Below, in pieces: positions 14,633-19,949 of a DNA stretch of 45,984 nucleotides. The notes under the pieces are model-generated. The model saw nothing but the letters and a program-made list of their open reading frames with translations. It had not been told where the DNA came from and ran no database searches. How positions within the stretch are numbered: the first letter of the stretch is position 1; every line of letters begins with the position of its first letter. Location: contig JAABSH010000029.1 in the NCBI GenBank assembly GCA_011390465.1, forward strand, positions 1 to 45,984, read 5' to 3'. Both the position numbers and the translations under genes were made by a program. Source of the DNA: Desulfobacteraceae bacterium. GTDB taxonomy: Bacteria; Desulfobacterota; Desulfobacteria; Desulfobacterales; Desulfosalsimonadaceae.

Positions 14633-15379
14633 ATGAAAAACCCTGCATTAAAAAATTCCGTCGTCCTGATATGTTCAGCAGGCACGGTGGCCCGCTCTAA
14701 AACGACGGTTGCTGCAGGATCGGCCACCGTGCCGATCGCTGGTCTGGTTTTAGTCAAATTTTTTCGGAACAAATTTATCCTGGCAGCGGTTTTTCTTCTT
14801 ATGCTAAGTGTATTCAGCCTGTGCCATCCCCGATTGTGCCATCCCCAAGAGAATGCGCCAGCCTCCGGCATGTTCCGGATTGCCATGGGGTATTGTTTTT
14901 TGAGCCAAACCGATGACATAAAAGATACCTACAAACATCTTCTGCGGGCAGAAGGCAGGGACGCGGATGTGTTCGGGACTTCACTGGGGGTAAAATGCGA
15001 GCCTTATTATCAGTTTAAAAACGGCATTCGGGCCGGCGCCAGTGCCGGGCCTCTTATTCTGATCGCGGGAGACAGCCATCATTTTCAGGTACCGCTCAAT
15101 CTCAGCATGGGATATTCTTTTTTTCAGGATGCACCGGTATCCGGGTATTTAAAATGCGGCATAAGCTGGCATGCGGCAACCGGCGATTATGTCGCGCACA
15201 GTGCTCCGGGATTTTACGGGGGCGCGGGATGTGAAATTTTAAACCACAAACCCGTTCATATTGGAATTGAAATCATGTATGACGCTGCCACGGTTTCCCT
15301 GGACCGGCCCAGGGGCGCCTCTGGCCATAAAAAAATTCAGACCGGTGAAGTTACCGTTTTTCTGTACGCGGATTTTTAA
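14633..15379 (+). CDS. Putative exported, outer-membrane-like protein; N-terminus overlaps a repeat
   Basis: 248 residues from the ATG at 14633, which lacks a clear ribosome site. Residues about 16-37 are encoded by a GGCACGGTGGCC palindrome, and a hydrophobic segment follows at about 50-64 (KFILAAVFLLMLSVFSL), which could be a signal peptide if the true start is later (GTG at 14688 or 14727, or ATG at 14800). The remainder has alternating Gly/aromatic strands and ends TVFLYADF, consistent with a small beta-barrel protein ending in Phe; this is weak evidence. It converges with aroA, overlapping its stop by four bases. I do not recognise a family. The start is uncertain. Confidence 0.55.
   Translation: MKNPALKNSVVLICSAGTVARSKTTVAAGSATVPIAGLVLVKFFRNKFILAAVFLLMLSVFSLCHPRLCHPQENAPASGMFRIAMGYCFLSQTDDIKDTYKHLLRAEGRDADVFGTSLGVKCEPYYQFKNGIRAGASAGPLILIAGDSHHFQVPLNLSMGYSFFQDAPVSGYLKCGISWHAATGDYVAHSAPGFYGGAGCEILNHKPVHIGIEIMYDAATVSLDRPRGASGHKKIQTGEVTVFLYADF
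14681..14783. repeat. GGCACGGTGGCC palindrome copy inside the 5' end of a gene
   Basis: A perfect 12-bp inverted pair, GGCACGGTGGCC at 14681-14692 and its complement at 14722-14733, is followed at 14768-14783 by AACAAATTTATCCTGG. The latter matches 15 of 16 bases of the terminal repeat at 1783-1798. The order of parts is as in the element at 1562-1798, so this is probably a second copy of the same family that now contributes codons to the gene at 14633-15379. Confidence 0.55.
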
Positions 15380-16638
15380 GCCCGGTACAGCCCTTCCAGC
15401 ACTTCCCAGAATGTGGGAAATGATTTTTCCACGCACATTTCATTGGAAATTACCATCCCGGGAGTTTTTAAACCGGCAATGGCAAAACACATGGCCATGC
15501 GGTGGTCATTGTACGTTTCAACGACAGCGCCCGTTGGGGTGCCGCCGGTAATGATCAGATCGTCATTTTCAGCGCGAGCTGATATTTTCATTTTTGTGAG
15601 TTCTGCTATTACCGCGGACAGCCGGTCGCTTTCCTTGATTTTCAGATGGGCCACGTTTCTGATACGGGTGACCCCTCTGGCAAATGCAGCCACCACCGCA
15701 AGAGTGGGCACAATATCAGGCATGTCCGCCATATCCACATCAATGCCGGACAATTCGCCGCCCGTGACGGTGATGCCGTCGGCGTCAGCATTCACATGGC
15801 ACCCCATGGTCTCAAGCACCCGGCAAAACCGCACATCCCCCTGAACAGAATCCTCTGTAATGCCCCGGACCTTTATGGACCGGGCGGTAATGGCCGCTGC
15901 AGCCCAGAAATAACCGGCCTGGGACGCGTCCGGTTCCACCTGATAACGGCCTGCCTGATACTGCTGGCCGCCGGGCACTTCAAAATAATCATAACCCTTG
16001 CGCAGCAACTGGATGCCGAATCGGGCCATGATGTCTATGGTCATGTCGATGTAAGGCCGGGAAACCATACCATGGGTTACCTGGATGGAAAGCCCTTTTT
16101 TTGTGCACGGCGCGGCCAGCAGCAGGCCGGAAAGAAACTGGCTGCTCTGGCTGCAATTGATATGCACTGCGCCGCCGGCCATAGGACCGCCGGTAATGGA
16201 TACCGGCGGGCAATCATTGCCGTTTAATGAAACCGCCGATATGCCGACCTGGGAAAGGGCTGCCAGGAGATGCCCCATGGGACGTTCATGCATTCGCTTT
16301 GTCCCTTTGAGGATATAGGGTCCATGGCCCAGGGCCGCGTACGAAGCCAGCAGCCGCATGGAAGTGCCGGAATTGCCGAGATAGATCGGCTGATCACAGG
16401 GGCCGGGCCGGCCGCCGCATCCAAGAATCAAAAGTTCGGAATCAGTTTTTTCAATGCCGGCGCCGAAATGCCGCAGCGCGTTTATGGTAAAACAGGTGTC
16501 TTCACTGTCCAGCCAGTTTTGAAGCCGGCATTGACCGGAAGACAGGGCGGATGCAATCAGGGTCCGGTGGGTATAGCTTTTGGATCCGGGTACGGTAACC
16601 GTTGTATCTTTGATTTCAGCGGTTTTTATGCTGCGCAT
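15376..16638 (-). CDS. aroA: 3-phosphoshikimate 1-carboxyvinyltransferase (EPSP synthase)
   Basis: Joins shikimate 3-phosphate and phosphoenolpyruvate to make EPSP, just before chorismate synthase. Family motifs are PGSKSYTHR near residue 17 (usually PGSKSISNR), LGNSGTSMRLL (PEP site), RMHERPMGHL, and the C-terminal LKIKESDRL and TYNDHRMAM. Length 420 is usual. It is the last gene of the aromatic operon, 54 bases after pheA with a heptamer array between. Its stop overlaps the convergent neighbour by four bases. Ser-to-Tyr in the PGSKS segment is within family variation. Confidence 0.95.
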   Translation of the reverse strand: MRSIKTAEIKDTTVTVPGSKSYTHRTLIASALSSGQCRLQNWLDSEDTCFTINALRHFGAGIEKTDSELLILGCGGRPGPCDQPIYLGNSGTSMRLLASYAALGHGPYILKGTKRMHERPMGHLLAALSQVGISAVSLNGNDCPPVSITGGPMAGGAVHINCSQSSQFLSGLLLAAPCTKKGLSIQVTHGMVSRPYIDMTIDIMARFGIQLLRKGYDYFEVPGGQQYQAGRYQVEPDASQAGYFWAAAAITARSIKVRGITEDSVQGDVRFCRVLETMGCHVNADADGITVTGGELSGIDVDMADMPDIVPTLAVVAAFARGVTRIRNVAHLKIKESDRLSAVIAELTKMKISARAENDDLIITGGTPTGAVVETYNDHRMAMCFAIAGLKTPGMVISNEMCVEKSFPTFWEVLEGLYRA

Positions 16639-16692: not shown

Positions 16693-17793
16693 TCATTGTT
16701 CCTGGAACTGCGGATAAGACCCCAGCAATTTGATAAACTGGCAATAGGGCCGCATCTGTTCAATGGTGTGCTGGATTTTTGCATCTGCAATGTGCCCGTC
16801 AAAATCCACAAAAAAGAAATAACTCCAGTTTTCATGTTTTGTGGGCCGGGATTCCAGTTTGGACATATTGATGCCGGCCTCTGAAATGGGCTGCAGGGTT
16901 TTGTAAAGCGCGCCAGGCACATGCGCGATGACAAACATCAGAGACGTTTTGTCGCATCCGGTAGGCGGGGGGGTGTCATTGCCGATAAGCAGAAATCGGG
17001 TAATGTTGTTGGCATAATCCTCAATATGGGATTCCAGAATCTGCAGCCCGTAAATATGCGCCGCCTCGCTGTTGGCAATGGCAGCGGTGTTTTTCTCCCC
17101 GGCGGCTTTTTGCGCGGCATGGGCCGTGCTGCGGGTTTCAGACAACACCGCGTTGGGCAGGTTTTTCCGTATCCAGCCCCGGCACTGGGCCAGGGCCTGG
17201 GGATGAGAATAAATCACTTCAATATCATCAATGGCATCAGCCCGGGACAGGACCGCATGGGAAATATTCAGATAGTGTTCCGCGCAGATTTTGAGATCAG
17301 ATTCAAAAAAAAGATCCAGGGTATGATTAATGGCCCCTTCAATGGAGTTTTCCACCGGCACCACCCCGTAATCGCATTTTTTCCGGCCCACCTCCATAAA
17401 CACATCCCGGATGCTGGTCTGGGGAATAAAGGTGGCGGAATGGCCGAAAAGGGCCATGGCCGCGACATGGGTGAAAGTGGCTTCCGGTCCCAGATAGGAA
17501 ATCCGGGTGGGCGCCTGGATTTCCCGGCACGCGGAAATAATATCCGTAAAAATCTGATGCAGGGTCTGGGTTTTCAGCGGTCCCGGGTTCAGGGCGTTTA
17601 ACCGCTCCATCACCCGGGTTTCCCGGGATTTGTCGAAAATATAGCCGCCCTGCTCTTTTTTGATCCGGCCGATGGTTTCCGCGAGTTTCAGGCGGCCATT
17701 GATAAGTTCCAGGATATGGGCGTCAATCTCATCAATGGCAGCGCGCAGTTGCGGGATTTCAGGTTCTGCCGGATAACTGGTTTTATCATTCAT
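16693..17793 (-). CDS. pheA: Bifunctional chorismate mutase / prephenate dehydratase (P-protein)
   Basis: Makes phenylpyruvate from chorismate through prephenate for phenylalanine. Domains in order over 366 residues: AroQ-type chorismate mutase at about 12-95 (RAAIDEIDAHILELINGRLKL, here as RAAIDEIDAHILELIN and GRLKL), prephenate dehydratase at about 97-275 (SYLGPEATFTHVAA, VPVENSIEGAIN, and NNITRFLLIG with the catalytic TRF), and an ACT domain at about 290-360 with ESRP, the phenylalanine-binding motif for feedback inhibition. It lies 15 bases after the DHQ synthase II gene. Allosteric control here would add to the transcriptional attenuation predicted upstream. Confidence 0.95.
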   Translation of the reverse strand: MNDKTSYPAEPEIPQLRAAIDEIDAHILELINGRLKLAETIGRIKKEQGGYIFDKSRETRVMERLNALNPGPLKTQTLHQIFTDIISACREIQAPTRISYLGPEATFTHVAAMALFGHSATFIPQTSIRDVFMEVGRKKCDYGVVPVENSIEGAINHTLDLFFESDLKICAEHYLNISHAVLSRADAIDDIEVIYSHPQALAQCRGWIRKNLPNAVLSETRSTAHAAQKAAGEKNTAAIANSEAAHIYGLQILESHIEDYANNITRFLLIGNDTPPPTGCDKTSLMFVIAHVPGALYKTLQPISEAGINMSKLESRPTKHENWSYFFFVDFDGHIADAKIQHTIEQMRPYCQFIKLLGSYPQFQEQ

Positions 17794-17808: not shown

Positions 17809-18804
17809 TTACTTTTCAGTAATGGTTTCATTAATTTTCATGCCAAAATGCCGGCCGCTTTCTTCCATGGCCACCAGCACCCGGTCCCCGGGTTTGAGAT
17901 TGACCACGGACACGGGCTCCCCGTCCGGGCTGGTCAGGCGGATGGTTTCAGCATTCTGGAGAATGGTGGTAATTTCCTTTTCCCCGATGGCTGCTTTGAC
18001 CAGCATCAGGGGCCGTTTTTCGATTTTCAGGCGGCCCACAATGGCGGTAACGGAATTTCCCTTAAAATCCGTAATCAGCACCGGGTCTCCGGCAGCCAGT
18101 TCCGACAGATACCGGGTTCTGCCACCCGGCACCCGGGTATAGGCATGCACGGCCCCGGCGTTCACCCGGAACGGCCGGGCCGCTACATAGGGGTTGTCAA
18201 TGCTTTCCGCGTGCACCAGAAAAAGGGCGGAACTGGCGTTCCCCACCAGCATTCCCTGCCCGGGCGTCATTTCCGTACACGTATCCACGCACACCCGGTC
18301 CCCCATGCCCACCGGCTTGATGGCGGTAATTTCCGCAACATCCAGGGCCGTGAGATCGGCTTTTGAACGCAGAACAGTTAAGGCATTTTTCAGGGCAGCA
18401 ACATCATCTGTACAAAAAAGAATATGATCCACGCCTTTTTCCAGAATGCCGAACGCGGTCTGGGCTTCTTCAAGGCTGTTCACCCGGGCGATTATGCTGC
18501 CCGCCCCTTTTGCAATGAGGTTTTCCAGGGGGATGACCGACCAGTCCGTGCACTCCAGAATCACCTTTTTATCCCGGGTCAGGGCCACGATTTCATCTTC
18601 ATCCGCGCCGCTTTCTATTTTAAATGCCACCACATCTTCGCCCGGGCGGATATCACCGTCTTCGGCAATGGTGTCAATCCGGCCCAGGGCTTTTACCTTG
18701 TCCGCGTACCCGGCAGGCACCATAACGCCGTCCGCCCCGCCTTCAATGGCCGTGGTCACCAGATCTTTGTTCCAGGGATCAATATTTACCCAGATTTTTC
18801 GCAT
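17809..18804 (-). CDS. 3-dehydroquinate synthase II (archaeal type)
   Basis: A 331-residue protein of the family that oxidatively deaminates ADTH (2-amino-3,7-dideoxy-D-threo-hept-6-ulosonate) with NAD to 3-dehydroquinate, bypassing classical AroB. Recognisable features are the start KIWVNIDPWNKDLVTTAIEGG, here as KIWVNIDPWNK and DLVTTAIEGG, and the C-terminal segments VGDRVCVDTCTEM-like (GMGDRVCVDTCTEMTPGQGM), RPFRVNAGAVHAY and GGRTRYLSEL. Length is at the lower end for the family. It starts 19 bases after the ADTH synthase stop, its functional partner. The family is known from archaea and some deltaproteobacteria; there is no sign of recent transfer, as codon use matches neighbours. Confidence 0.93.
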   Translation of the reverse strand: MRKIWVNIDPWNKDLVTTAIEGGADGVMVPAGYADKVKALGRIDTIAEDGDIRPGEDVVAFKIESGADEDEIVALTRDKKVILECTDWSVIPLENLIAKGAGSIIARVNSLEEAQTAFGILEKGVDHILFCTDDVAALKNALTVLRSKADLTALDVAEITAIKPVGMGDRVCVDTCTEMTPGQGMLVGNASSALFLVHAESIDNPYVAARPFRVNAGAVHAYTRVPGGRTRYLSELAAGDPVLITDFKGNSVTAIVGRLKIEKRPLMLVKAAIGEKEITTILQNAETIRLTSPDGEPVSVVNLKPGDRVLVAMEESGRHFGMKINETITEK

Positions 18805-18823: not shown

Positions 18824-19621
18824 TTATGTCAAAATTTTCAAGGCATCTTCCACTGACGCATTGTCAAACAGGATGGCGGCCATGGCTTTGACCATGAGCG
18901 TGGGATTGTCGTGCTGAAACACATTGCGGCCGATAGAAACCCCGGCCCCCCCGGCTTCTATGGAACCTTTAACCATTTCAAGGATATCCCGGTCAGAATC
19001 CATTTTTGCGCCCCCGGCAATGACCACCGGCACGGTGCAGCCTTCCACCACTTTGGCAAAGGATTCCGGAGAACCGGTATAAGACACCTTCACAATGTCC
19101 GCGCCCATCTCACATCCGACCCGGGCCGCGTGCTTGACCACTTCCACATCATATTCGTCTTTGATTTTTTCGCCCCGGGGATACATCATCACAAGCAGGG
19201 GAATGCCCCAGTTTCGGGATTCATAGGACACCCGGCCAAAATCGTTGAGCATTTCCTTTTCCTGGCCATTGCCGATGTTCACGTGAATGGACACGGCATC
19301 CGCGCCGAGCTTGAGGGCTTCTTCCACCGAACAGACCAGGGTTTTGGAATGGGGGTAGACTGATAAGGAAGTGGACGCGGACAAATGCACAATCAGCCCG
19401 ATATCCGAGCCGCCCCGGCGGTGCCCGGCCCCGACCAGACCTTTATGCTCCACAATGGCGTTGGCCCCGCCTTCGGCAATCTGGGCCACGGTTTTTTTGA
19501 TGTCTGTGATGCCGTGAATGGGGCCGACAGACACCCCGTGATCCAAGGGGACAATCAGGGTGCGGCCGGTCTTCCGGTCCATAATACGTTCCATGCGAAT
19601 GTGTTTGCCGATGATGGTCAT
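18824..19621 (-). CDS. ADTH synthase (DhnA-type class I aldolase)
   Basis: 265 residues from an ATG at 19621 with AAAGGAG nine bases upstream. A longer frame opening at a GTG at 19690 is rejected because its first 23 codons are encoded by terminator T2 and its T-run. The enzyme condenses aspartate semialdehyde with 6-deoxy-5-ketofructose 1-phosphate to ADTH. Motifs are [34 protein letters not shown] with the Schiff-base Lys, and VVIAGGAKM with [10 protein letters not shown] as the phosphate loop. First gene of the operon, immediately after the leader and tandem terminators, so its expression is probably set by attenuation. Some homologues are fructose-bisphosphate aldolases, but the neighbouring DHQ synthase II settles the role. 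Confidence 0.93.
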
Positions 19622-19659: not shown

Positions 19660-19693
19660 AAAAAAAAGCCGTGAAGACCTTCTTCTCCACGGC
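19660..19693 (-). terminator. Second hairpin terminator (T2) of the aromatic leader
   Basis: GCCGUGGAGA and UCUUCACGGC pair (10 bp, one G-U) across AGAAGG and are followed by eight U. It lies between T1 and the ADTH synthase ribosome site. A T6 run on the other strand makes it potentially bidirectional. It may back up T1 or be an independent control point. Confidence 0.75.
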
Positions 19694-19702
19694 TTTTTTC
19701 GC

Positions 19703-19737
19703 AAAAAAAAACCGCGGGCCTTGGTCTGCCCGCGGTT
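19703..19737 (-). terminator. First hairpin terminator (T1), attenuator of the aromatic operon
   Basis: On the transcribed strand AACCGCGGGC pairs with GCCCGCGGUU (10 bp, GC-rich, 8-base loop) and is followed by a run of U. It begins 22 bases after the leader-peptide stop. Its 5' arm can instead pair with leader-peptide codons (see the antiterminator entry), so it is conditional. Confidence 0.88.
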
Positions 19738-19780
19738 TATATTTTTCTATTCAGCTTTGTTAGGAACCCACAGGCAGACC
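19723..19780 (-). promoter_or_regulatory. Predicted antiterminator helix of the aromatic attenuator
   Basis: RNA segment GGUCUGCCUGUGG (complement of 19768-19780, within leader codons 23-27) can form 13 consecutive pairs with CCGCGGGCAGACC (complement of 19723-19735), two of them G-U. The second segment contains nearly all of the 5' arm of terminator T1, so the two structures exclude each other. A ribosome held on the upstream Phe/Tyr/Trp codons leaves the first segment free and lets the operon be read; a ribosome reaching the stop covers it and lets T1 form. Pairing is read directly from the sequence; the behaviour is inferred from classical amino acid attenuators. Confidence 0.8.
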
Positions 19781-19846
19781 CTTGGTATAAAAATAAAAAT
19801 AGTTAAAATACCAAAAATAAAAAAATCTGCCGGTGATGTTTTTCAT
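19760..19846 (-). CDS. Aromatic-residue-rich leader peptide (28 residues)
   Basis: An ATG at 19846 opens a 28-codon frame that begins MKNITGR, then reads FFYFWYFNYFYFY (codons 8-20: six Phe, five Tyr, one Trp, one Asn), and ends TKGLPVGS before TAA at 19762-19760. Twelve of thirteen codons for the three end products of the pathway, upstream of a terminator and the aromatic operon, make this a leader peptide whose translation senses charged tRNAs. Ribosome site is weak (AAGAAG). Unlike pheA, trp or pheST leaders it mixes all three amino acids. The peptide itself probably has no function. It is too short to be found by usual gene callers. Confidence 0.88.
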   Translation of the reverse strand: MKNITGRFFYFWYFNYFYFYTKGLPVGS

Positions 19847-19922: not shown

Positions 19923-19949
19923 ATTCTATGATTTTAAAATCTTTGTCAA
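19923..19949 (-). promoter_or_regulatory. Candidate promoter of the aromatic operon leader
   Basis: TTGACA (complement of 19944-19949) and TAGAAT (complement of 19923-19928) are separated by 15 bases, shorter than ideal. A second TTGACA lies at 19917-19922 without a good -10. The transcript would start about 70 bases before the leader peptide. The surrounding 19847-20032 is AT-rich and otherwise empty. Confidence 0.4.

Follow-up and report, generated by a model that had tools for sequence, protein, structure and literature searches.

A probable leader-peptide attenuator with a mixed Phe/Tyr/Trp leader and two chained terminators upstream of an ADTH synthase operon

The attenuators of the enteric trp, pheA, pheST and his operons are composed of a leader peptide, of the alternative pairings 1:2, 2:3 and 3:4, and of an intrinsic terminator placed before the first gene. 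Known leader-peptide attenuators count one amino acid or one biosynthetic group, and these enteric ones use one terminator. The element described here is located upstream of an ADTH synthase operon in a 45,984-nt stretch of Desulfobacteraceae bacterium DNA (contig JAABSH010000029.1; the window is this whole stretch). It is like the enteric attenuators in its run of regulatory codons, its 1:2, 2:3 and 3:4 pairings and its terminator before the first gene, and unlike them in its mixed Phe/Tyr/Trp block, its two terminators and an extra pairing, 4:5.

According to the accessible part of its description, the erm(K) attenuator of Bacillus also combines a leader peptide with two adjacent Rho-independent terminators (PMC4335068). 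Our element shares this tandem arrangement; it differs from erm(K), a Gram-positive resistance gene that answers macrolides, by its amino-acid codon runs and by the biosynthetic operons that it precedes. Because the downstream genes are biosynthetic, macrolide induction is not expected here. The rimP leader of several Gammaproteobacteria likewise has a second terminator in tandem, with antiterminator potential, but it precedes another gene and the passage devoted to it is without a codon-run leader peptide (PMC2965389). The uORFC-13-1 motif, represented 5' of Acholeplasma aroF by 24 unique sequences from Acholeplasma and environmental samples, is a predicted uORF with at least one Phe codon plus a terminator, the accessible section mentioning one terminator (PMC8632094). 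This motif resembles our loci in having a Phe-codon frame plus terminator before DAHP synthase, and differs from them, as far as that section goes, in having no mixed aromatic block and in not being located at ADTH synthase. An early hypothesis for E. coli aroF is mentioned in the same section (PMC8632094), and, in the accessible part of another paper, no conserved RNA structures are reported for the Phe or Tyr operons of Actinobacteria (PMC1262725). A text search of the available parts of PMC11857589 and PMC5418344 returned no mention of tandem terminators. Among the titles and abstract openings of papers retrieved from the open PMC literature, which leaves most subscription papers outside, we found neither a leader-peptide attenuator of Desulfobacterota nor a leader counting all three aromatics at ADTH or DAHP synthase. 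No Rfam family, T-box included, reaches its gathering score in the window or in 20 related loci, the scores being, for instance, 19.4 against 55 bits for Phe_leader (RF01859) and 28.6 against 49 bits for His_leader (RF00514). Ribosome-mediated attenuation is classical; a mixed aromatic leader placed where the pathway begins, combined with chained terminators, would seem to be a new variation on it.

Leader frame, operon and hairpins of the window

A leader peptide frame of 28 codons, MKNITGRFFYFWYFNYFYFYTKGLPVGS followed by a stop, lies on the reverse strand at 19846-19760, within the region of the preliminary description. The regulatory codons of its block FFYFWYFNYFYFY (codons 8-20, 19787-19825) specify Phe, Tyr or Trp at 12 of 13 positions, and the leader is thus a short frame with a run of end-product codons, as found in attenuators. 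The surrounding DNA is AT-rich and all Phe and Tyr codons of this frame are UUU and UAU, as would be expected if a low-complexity frame happened to lie beside the terminator of the upstream gene. Such a chance frame, to which we attribute a negligible probability, is rejected by two lines of evidence. An equally aromatic-rich frame appears in none of 50 dinucleotide shuffles of the 400 nt located 5' of the ADTH gene, the observed frame score being reached in 0/50 shuffles for 71 of the 84 loci that give any frame, and the frame is conserved, with covarying arms, in 78/80 loci (see below).

The leader precedes, on the same strand, the operon announced by the preliminary description, whose first gene encodes ADTH synthase (2-amino-3,7-dideoxy-D-threo-hept-6-ulosonate synthase; 18824-19621, TIGR01949 above cut-off). 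This gene is followed by those encoding 3-dehydroquinate synthase II (17809-18804, NF002627 above cut-off), chorismate mutase/prephenate dehydratase (pheA; 16693-17793, NF008865 above cut-off, chorismate mutase domain models below cut-off) and EPSP synthase (aroA; 15376-16638, TIGR01356 above cut-off). A candidate promoter (19923-19949, reverse strand), composed of TTGACA (19949-19944), a 15-nt spacer and TAGAAT (19928-19923), matches the consensus at 11 of 12 positions. Promoter scores of at least 10 are found within 160 nt 5' of the leader for 21/77 leaders, compared to 18/385 shuffles; the fixed scan, using spacers of 16-18, did not list the TTGACA-15-TAGAAT candidate of the window.

Two U-tailed hairpins, both on the reverse strand, are arranged in tandem between the leader and ADTH synthase. 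The first one, T1 (pairing 3:4; 19709-19738, with a run of nine U at 19711-19703), has a folding energy of -21.6 kcal/mol, equalled by 2/200 shuffles, and starts 21 bases after the stop codon of the leader; it is the strong terminator already noticed just past the peptide stop and, as judged from its sequence and structure, an intrinsic terminator between the leader frame and the first gene. Eight bases separate its stem from the second hairpin, T2 (pairing 5:6; 19661-19700, GC core 19693-19668, U run 19667-19660), which is of equal strength (-23.1 kcal/mol; 0/200 shuffles as stable) and shares with T1 the core GCCGTG/CACGGC. The window, like erm(K), therefore has two adjacent intrinsic terminators behind a leader frame. 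The start of ADTH synthase is located 39 bases past the T2 stem.

As about 23 nt separate the end of the T2 stem from a Shine-Dalgarno-like sequence, the leader might be translated and yet serve a translational or Rho-dependent regulation, or the hairpins might act in mRNA stability or processing. This explanation is very improbable: neither stem of the window covers the ribosome binding site, both hairpins have the U runs and GC-rich stems that are typical of intrinsic terminators, and at the loci where the gene starts 277-300 nt after the leader (L034, L003, L037, L039, L008 and L020), T1 and T2 still follow the leader directly.

Six arms can be recognized on the reverse strand of this region. 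Arm 1 (19824-19836, codons for ..TGR) and arm 2 (19768-19780, codons for GLPVG) form a 1:2 hairpin inside the leader frame in the window folding, and duplex energies make arm 2 the expected partner of arm 1 when no ribosome blocks it; this hairpin has the pairing potential to free the terminator upon readthrough or when the leader is not translated. Arm 2 is also the 5' side of an antiterminator, since GGTCTGCCTGTGG (19780-19768) can form 13 pairs, including two G-U, with CCGCGGGCAGACC (19735-19723), as had been stated for the codons following the aromatic block and the 5' arm of the terminator. The latter sequence is arm 3 (19723-19735), at the same time the T1 5' arm and the 3' side of the antiterminator. 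Arm 4 (19705-19717), which comprises the T1 3' arm plus part of the U run, is complementary to arm 5 (19687-19699), the T2 5' arm, its partner in the ON state proposed below. The whole leader region folds with a z-score of -7.27, none of 200 shuffles being as stable. By their complementarity, the six arms could switch as a chain, 1:2/3:4/5:6 being the off state and 2:3/4:5 the on state.

Conservation and covariation of the leader and its pairings

The regions 5' of ADTH synthase were compared among relatives, as the preliminary description had proposed. ADTH synthase relatives were present in 25/36 genomes of the family sample (E <=1e-100) and in 103/146 genomes of the order sample (E <=0.001, distant aldolases included), and 80 of 203 loci were retained from named genome contigs, with titles mostly of Desulfobacterales or Desulfobacteraceae. 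The resulting 132 loci correspond to 86 distinct upstream regions, or 80 after removal of six that were cut by a contig end (<200 nt). With a criterion of at least five Phe/Tyr/Trp per ten codons within 700 nt upstream, a Phe/Tyr(/Trp)-rich frame is found in 78 of these 80 loci, 75 of them having it within 400 nt; it lies beyond 400 nt in L023, L064 and L080, the last of which looks atypical, and no aromatic-rich frame is found within 700 nt in L070 and L098. One culturable relative that has the element is Desulfonema magnum (L053/L008). The record of L080 is titled Candidatus Falkowbacteria, its ADTH synthase is 75% identical to that of the window, and it is perhaps mislabelled or derived from a mixed MAG.

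Phe and Tyr codons are present in 78/78 leaders and Trp codons in 55, so that a leader counting all three aromatic amino acids, as first described, holds for the window and for these 55 and has to be restricted for the other 23, which contain Phe and Tyr only. The UUU:UUC ratio is 264:22 in the 78 leaders compared to 174:114 in the ADTH genes, and the UAU:UAC ratio 311:69 compared to 256:109. Two peptide motifs, identified by eye, recur: ..[ST]G[RN].. close to the N-terminus and ..TGLPG(V)R at the C-terminus, which correspond to RNA arms 1 and 2. The 1:2 duplex has an energy of -19.85 kcal/mol within loci versus -16.32 kcal/mol across loci (0/1000 permutations, which ignore relatedness) and of -10.9 kcal/mol when arm 1 is shuffled. 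Two hairpins are found behind the leader in 42/78 loci by a strict criterion and in 65/78 by a looser one.

Covariation was analysed in two alignments: A1, made of 60 of the 65 loci having both T1 and T2 (L017, L022, L074, L102 and L103 were excluded, their arm 2 being poorly anchored), and A3, in which these 60 loci are completed by 26 new ones to a total of 86 (60 further loci had been fetched, 12 of them duplicates and 22 not adjoining ADTH synthase). As plain permutation tests ignore relatedness, tree-aware tests were added, in which columns were simulated along the ADTH gene tree. T1 and T2 are paired in 94.0% and 95.8% of A1 cells, respectively, with many compensatory changes, and they covary above the tree-aware null with 60 loci as well as with 86 (in the latter, 0/1500 for both summed G and paired fraction). 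The strong covariation of T1 thus bears out the comparison that had been proposed. The antiterminator 2:3, which lies directly 3' of the regulatory codons and excludes the terminator, is paired in 94.1% of A1 cells (60 loci; 0/500 shuffles). Its tree-aware support as a whole helix is weak (p = 0.13), single pairs going down to p = 0.002 (60 loci).

The pairing 4:5 is conserved to a higher extent than the terminators themselves, being paired in 97.3% of A1 cells (0/500 shuffles), with a covariation score of 0.256 versus 0.223 (0/500 shuffles; 60 loci), two of the five measures staying within the shuffle range (both-side pair changes, 65/500; further pair types, 121/500). The tree-aware test gives a helix p of 0.035 with 60 loci, columns 92 and 131 covarying with p = 0.002; with 86 loci, 97.7% of cells are paired versus 94.8% in the null (p = 0.008), and the summed G is 75.5 versus 17.5 (0/1500 simulations). 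Moreover, UCA in arm 4 and UGA in arm 5 together replace CCA and UGG in L056, L061, L068, L023, L078 and L104, loci that occupy five separate places of the ADTH gene tree.

These results have to be weighed against a simpler, classical attenuator in which T1 would be the sole regulated terminator and 4:5 would have no role, T2 being either a back-up that is weak or not regulated, or a copy of T1 resembling it through descent. The common core of T1 and T2 makes the 4:5 complementarity partly free. When the T2 of each locus is compared to 28 other terminators for its pairing with the T1 3' arm, its median rank is 0.32 and it beats 95% of them in 6/65 loci; these 28 are what is left of 189 terminators found once those of leader regions are removed, and some of them may be leader hairpins of truncated loci. 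A back-up role would also fit the 13/78 loci that, by the looser criterion, have one hairpin alone. Because T1 and T2 share their core, the mirror pairing 3:6 provides a natural control, and descent alone predicts that 3:6 is kept like 4:5. With 60 loci, however, 3:6 is paired in 81.1% of cells, without excess over shuffles (139/500), and every pair has a tree-aware p of at least 0.13; with 86 loci, it is paired in 81.8%, compared to the 97.7% of 4:5, with helix p values of 0.27 and 0.33 and one of ten pairs at p = 0.02. Sliding 4:5 by +1 gives p = 0.02 on summed G, with just 52.6% paired (86 loci). By these mirror and slid controls, a T1/T2 likeness merely due to descent is disfavoured. A strong unregulated T2 would, furthermore, be expected to cancel antitermination at T1. 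We thus regard T1 as sole regulated terminator as an unlikely reading, though a far more serious one than the translational or Rho-dependent one.

Folding order and proposed mechanism

The reading that we favour, and that we consider quite probable from the sequence comparisons, is that of a ribosome-mediated transcription attenuator that would read charged tRNA-Phe, tRNA-Tyr and tRNA-Trp together and control the entry of aromatic synthesis through the chained terminators T1 and T2. It supposes that a promoter upstream of the leader is used, that the frame is translated, that both hairpins terminate transcription in the cell, that the ribosome stalls on uncharged tRNA and that the arms fold in the order in which they emerge. 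With an ample supply of aromatic amino acids, the ribosome would run through the leader and arm 2 would be held by arm 1 or by the ribosome itself, so that T1 would form and transcription stop; a polymerase slipping past T1 would then meet T2, which can form in the off state because T1 already occupies arm 4. Upon a stall in the aromatic block, arm 2 would be free before arm 4 is made and would pair with arm 3, leaving arm 4 single; arm 4 would in turn capture the emerging arm 5, and arm 6 would come too late for T2. Since arm 4 is freed and captures arm 5, a single stall would open both terminators. Two serial terminators would in this way keep leakage low, as the leakage should be the product of both while one stall opens both.

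Nascent-RNA folding is consistent with this chain. With 2:3 imposed, 4:5 exceeds 5:6 in 60/60 loci up to a transcript that is two bases short of a complete T2 3' arm, a point that corresponds roughly to the RNA outside the polymerase at the T2 U run, given the length of the exit channel; when 3:4 is imposed instead, 4:5 drops to zero and T2 forms. Once the transcript extends four bases beyond the T2 3' arm, 5:6 exceeds 4:5 in 41/60 loci even with 2:3 imposed, and this outweighing of 4:5 by the finished T2 is also what a back-up T2 would give. The window energies of 2:3 plus 4:5 and of 2:3 plus 5:6 are nearly equal (-42.1 vs -42.2 kcal/mol). In equilibrium folding of the window, 3:4 beats 2:3 at every masked ribosome position tried, so that the switch is not reproduced, and the finished T2 beats 4:5 when no order is imposed; the switch is reproduced by ordered folding with imposed helices only. 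As equilibrium favours 3:4 and the finished T2, the chained scheme needs kinetic, co-transcriptional folding, as in classical attenuators.

The preliminary description gave the anatomy of the element correctly, and its mechanism, leader-peptide attenuation in which the position of the ribosome decides between terminator and antiterminator, is very probably the right one and finds good support in the comparison of relatives; it was incomplete, as T2 and 4:5 had been missed.

Wider occurrence of the element

A covariance model, R1, that covers T1 and T2 without 4:5 has matches in 352/389 genomes of the order (E <=0.001) and in 257/395 genomes of the phylum (E <=0.01), both tallies including terminator pairs that match by chance. 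We discount matches that score less than about 50 bits, as true elements copied on the reverse strand already score up to 47 bits. In the genome of the window, the best further match (G000:C24:40495-40623, or L189:1501-1629) has two U-tailed hairpins and the leader MTTRKKINTHNWWWWQAHIRKLAHG, in which four consecutive codons specify Trp. The protein of the gene behind it, truncated by the end of the locus, has anthranilate synthase component I as its best NCBIfam match (484.9/517.7 bits).

The script by which a further 123 loci were read selects one frame and one residue class among several, keeping the best, and single peptide-class assignments may therefore be wrong. Eight downstream proteins were checked against profiles (L168, L175, L189, L200, L211, L276, L244 and L248), the other gene names being given by eye. 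Mixed aromatic leaders precede DAHP synthases of both types (L168 and L175, above cut-off), Trp runs precede trpE-like genes (L189) and, in L200 (above cut-off), the gene of a TrpB-like enzyme, and Val runs with tandem hairpins precede acetolactate synthase (L211:1501-1634, above cut-off; L202, L216, L217 and L257, by eye). The codon run therefore suits the downstream gene, with Trp before trpE, Val before acetolactate synthase and Phe/Tyr/Trp before DAHP synthase. Phe-rich frames with tandem hairpins precede phenylacetate-CoA ligase-like genes (L276:501-647, L299:501-625, L289, L301, L215 and L218); the L276 protein, cut at the locus end, has TIGR02155 as best match, below cut-off (580/646 bits), and the five others are named by eye. 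This arrangement suggests that the phenylacetate-CoA ligase-like enzyme is linked to aromatic amino acid synthesis or salvage.

R1 matches, several of them with Phe-rich frames, are also observed before genes resembling, by eye, those of branched-chain-type ABC transporter binding proteins (L221, L244, L204, L205, L209 and L253). These binding proteins may carry aromatic amino acids; the L244 protein has no NCBIfam match at E 1e-40.

The 22 loci of the order that do not adjoin ADTH synthase comprise 14 DAHP-synthase-like cases, 7 pheA-like ones (N-terminus, by eye) and 1 at a contig edge. All seven pheA-like leaders (L310, L326, L336, L337, L338, L360 and L361), which may belong to close relatives, contain Phe and Tyr without Trp, as if the composition of the leader followed the branch that it controls. 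A position at the entrance of the ADTH route, as initially proposed, is thus correct for the element before ADTH synthase and too narrow for one that also precedes DAHP synthase and pheA-like genes.

For alignment A2, 98 matches were obtained from 100 of the 123 loci given, and one reverse match of L298 was removed. In the 97 mixed-operon elements, 4:5 is paired in 89.0% of cells versus 85.8% after permutation (0/300); as 3:6 exceeds permutation there too (83.3% versus 80.9%, 0/300), this set is weaker evidence for 4:5.

The boldest reading, which we hold with slightly more confidence than doubt, is that the six-arm chained attenuator is a standard device of amino acid biosynthesis across the phylum (aro, phe, trp and ilv), whose mixed-aromatic form would add up the charging states of the three tRNAs where the shikimate pathway begins, at ADTH and DAHP synthase alike. 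If this is true, the phylum would have a common RNA device that a covariance model can recognize, and the sequence alone would tell which amino acid is sensed, which would help to annotate the enzymes and transporters encoded behind the element. Chaining two terminators would then be nature's simple solution to leaky termination, and one that makes clear predictions for mutants.
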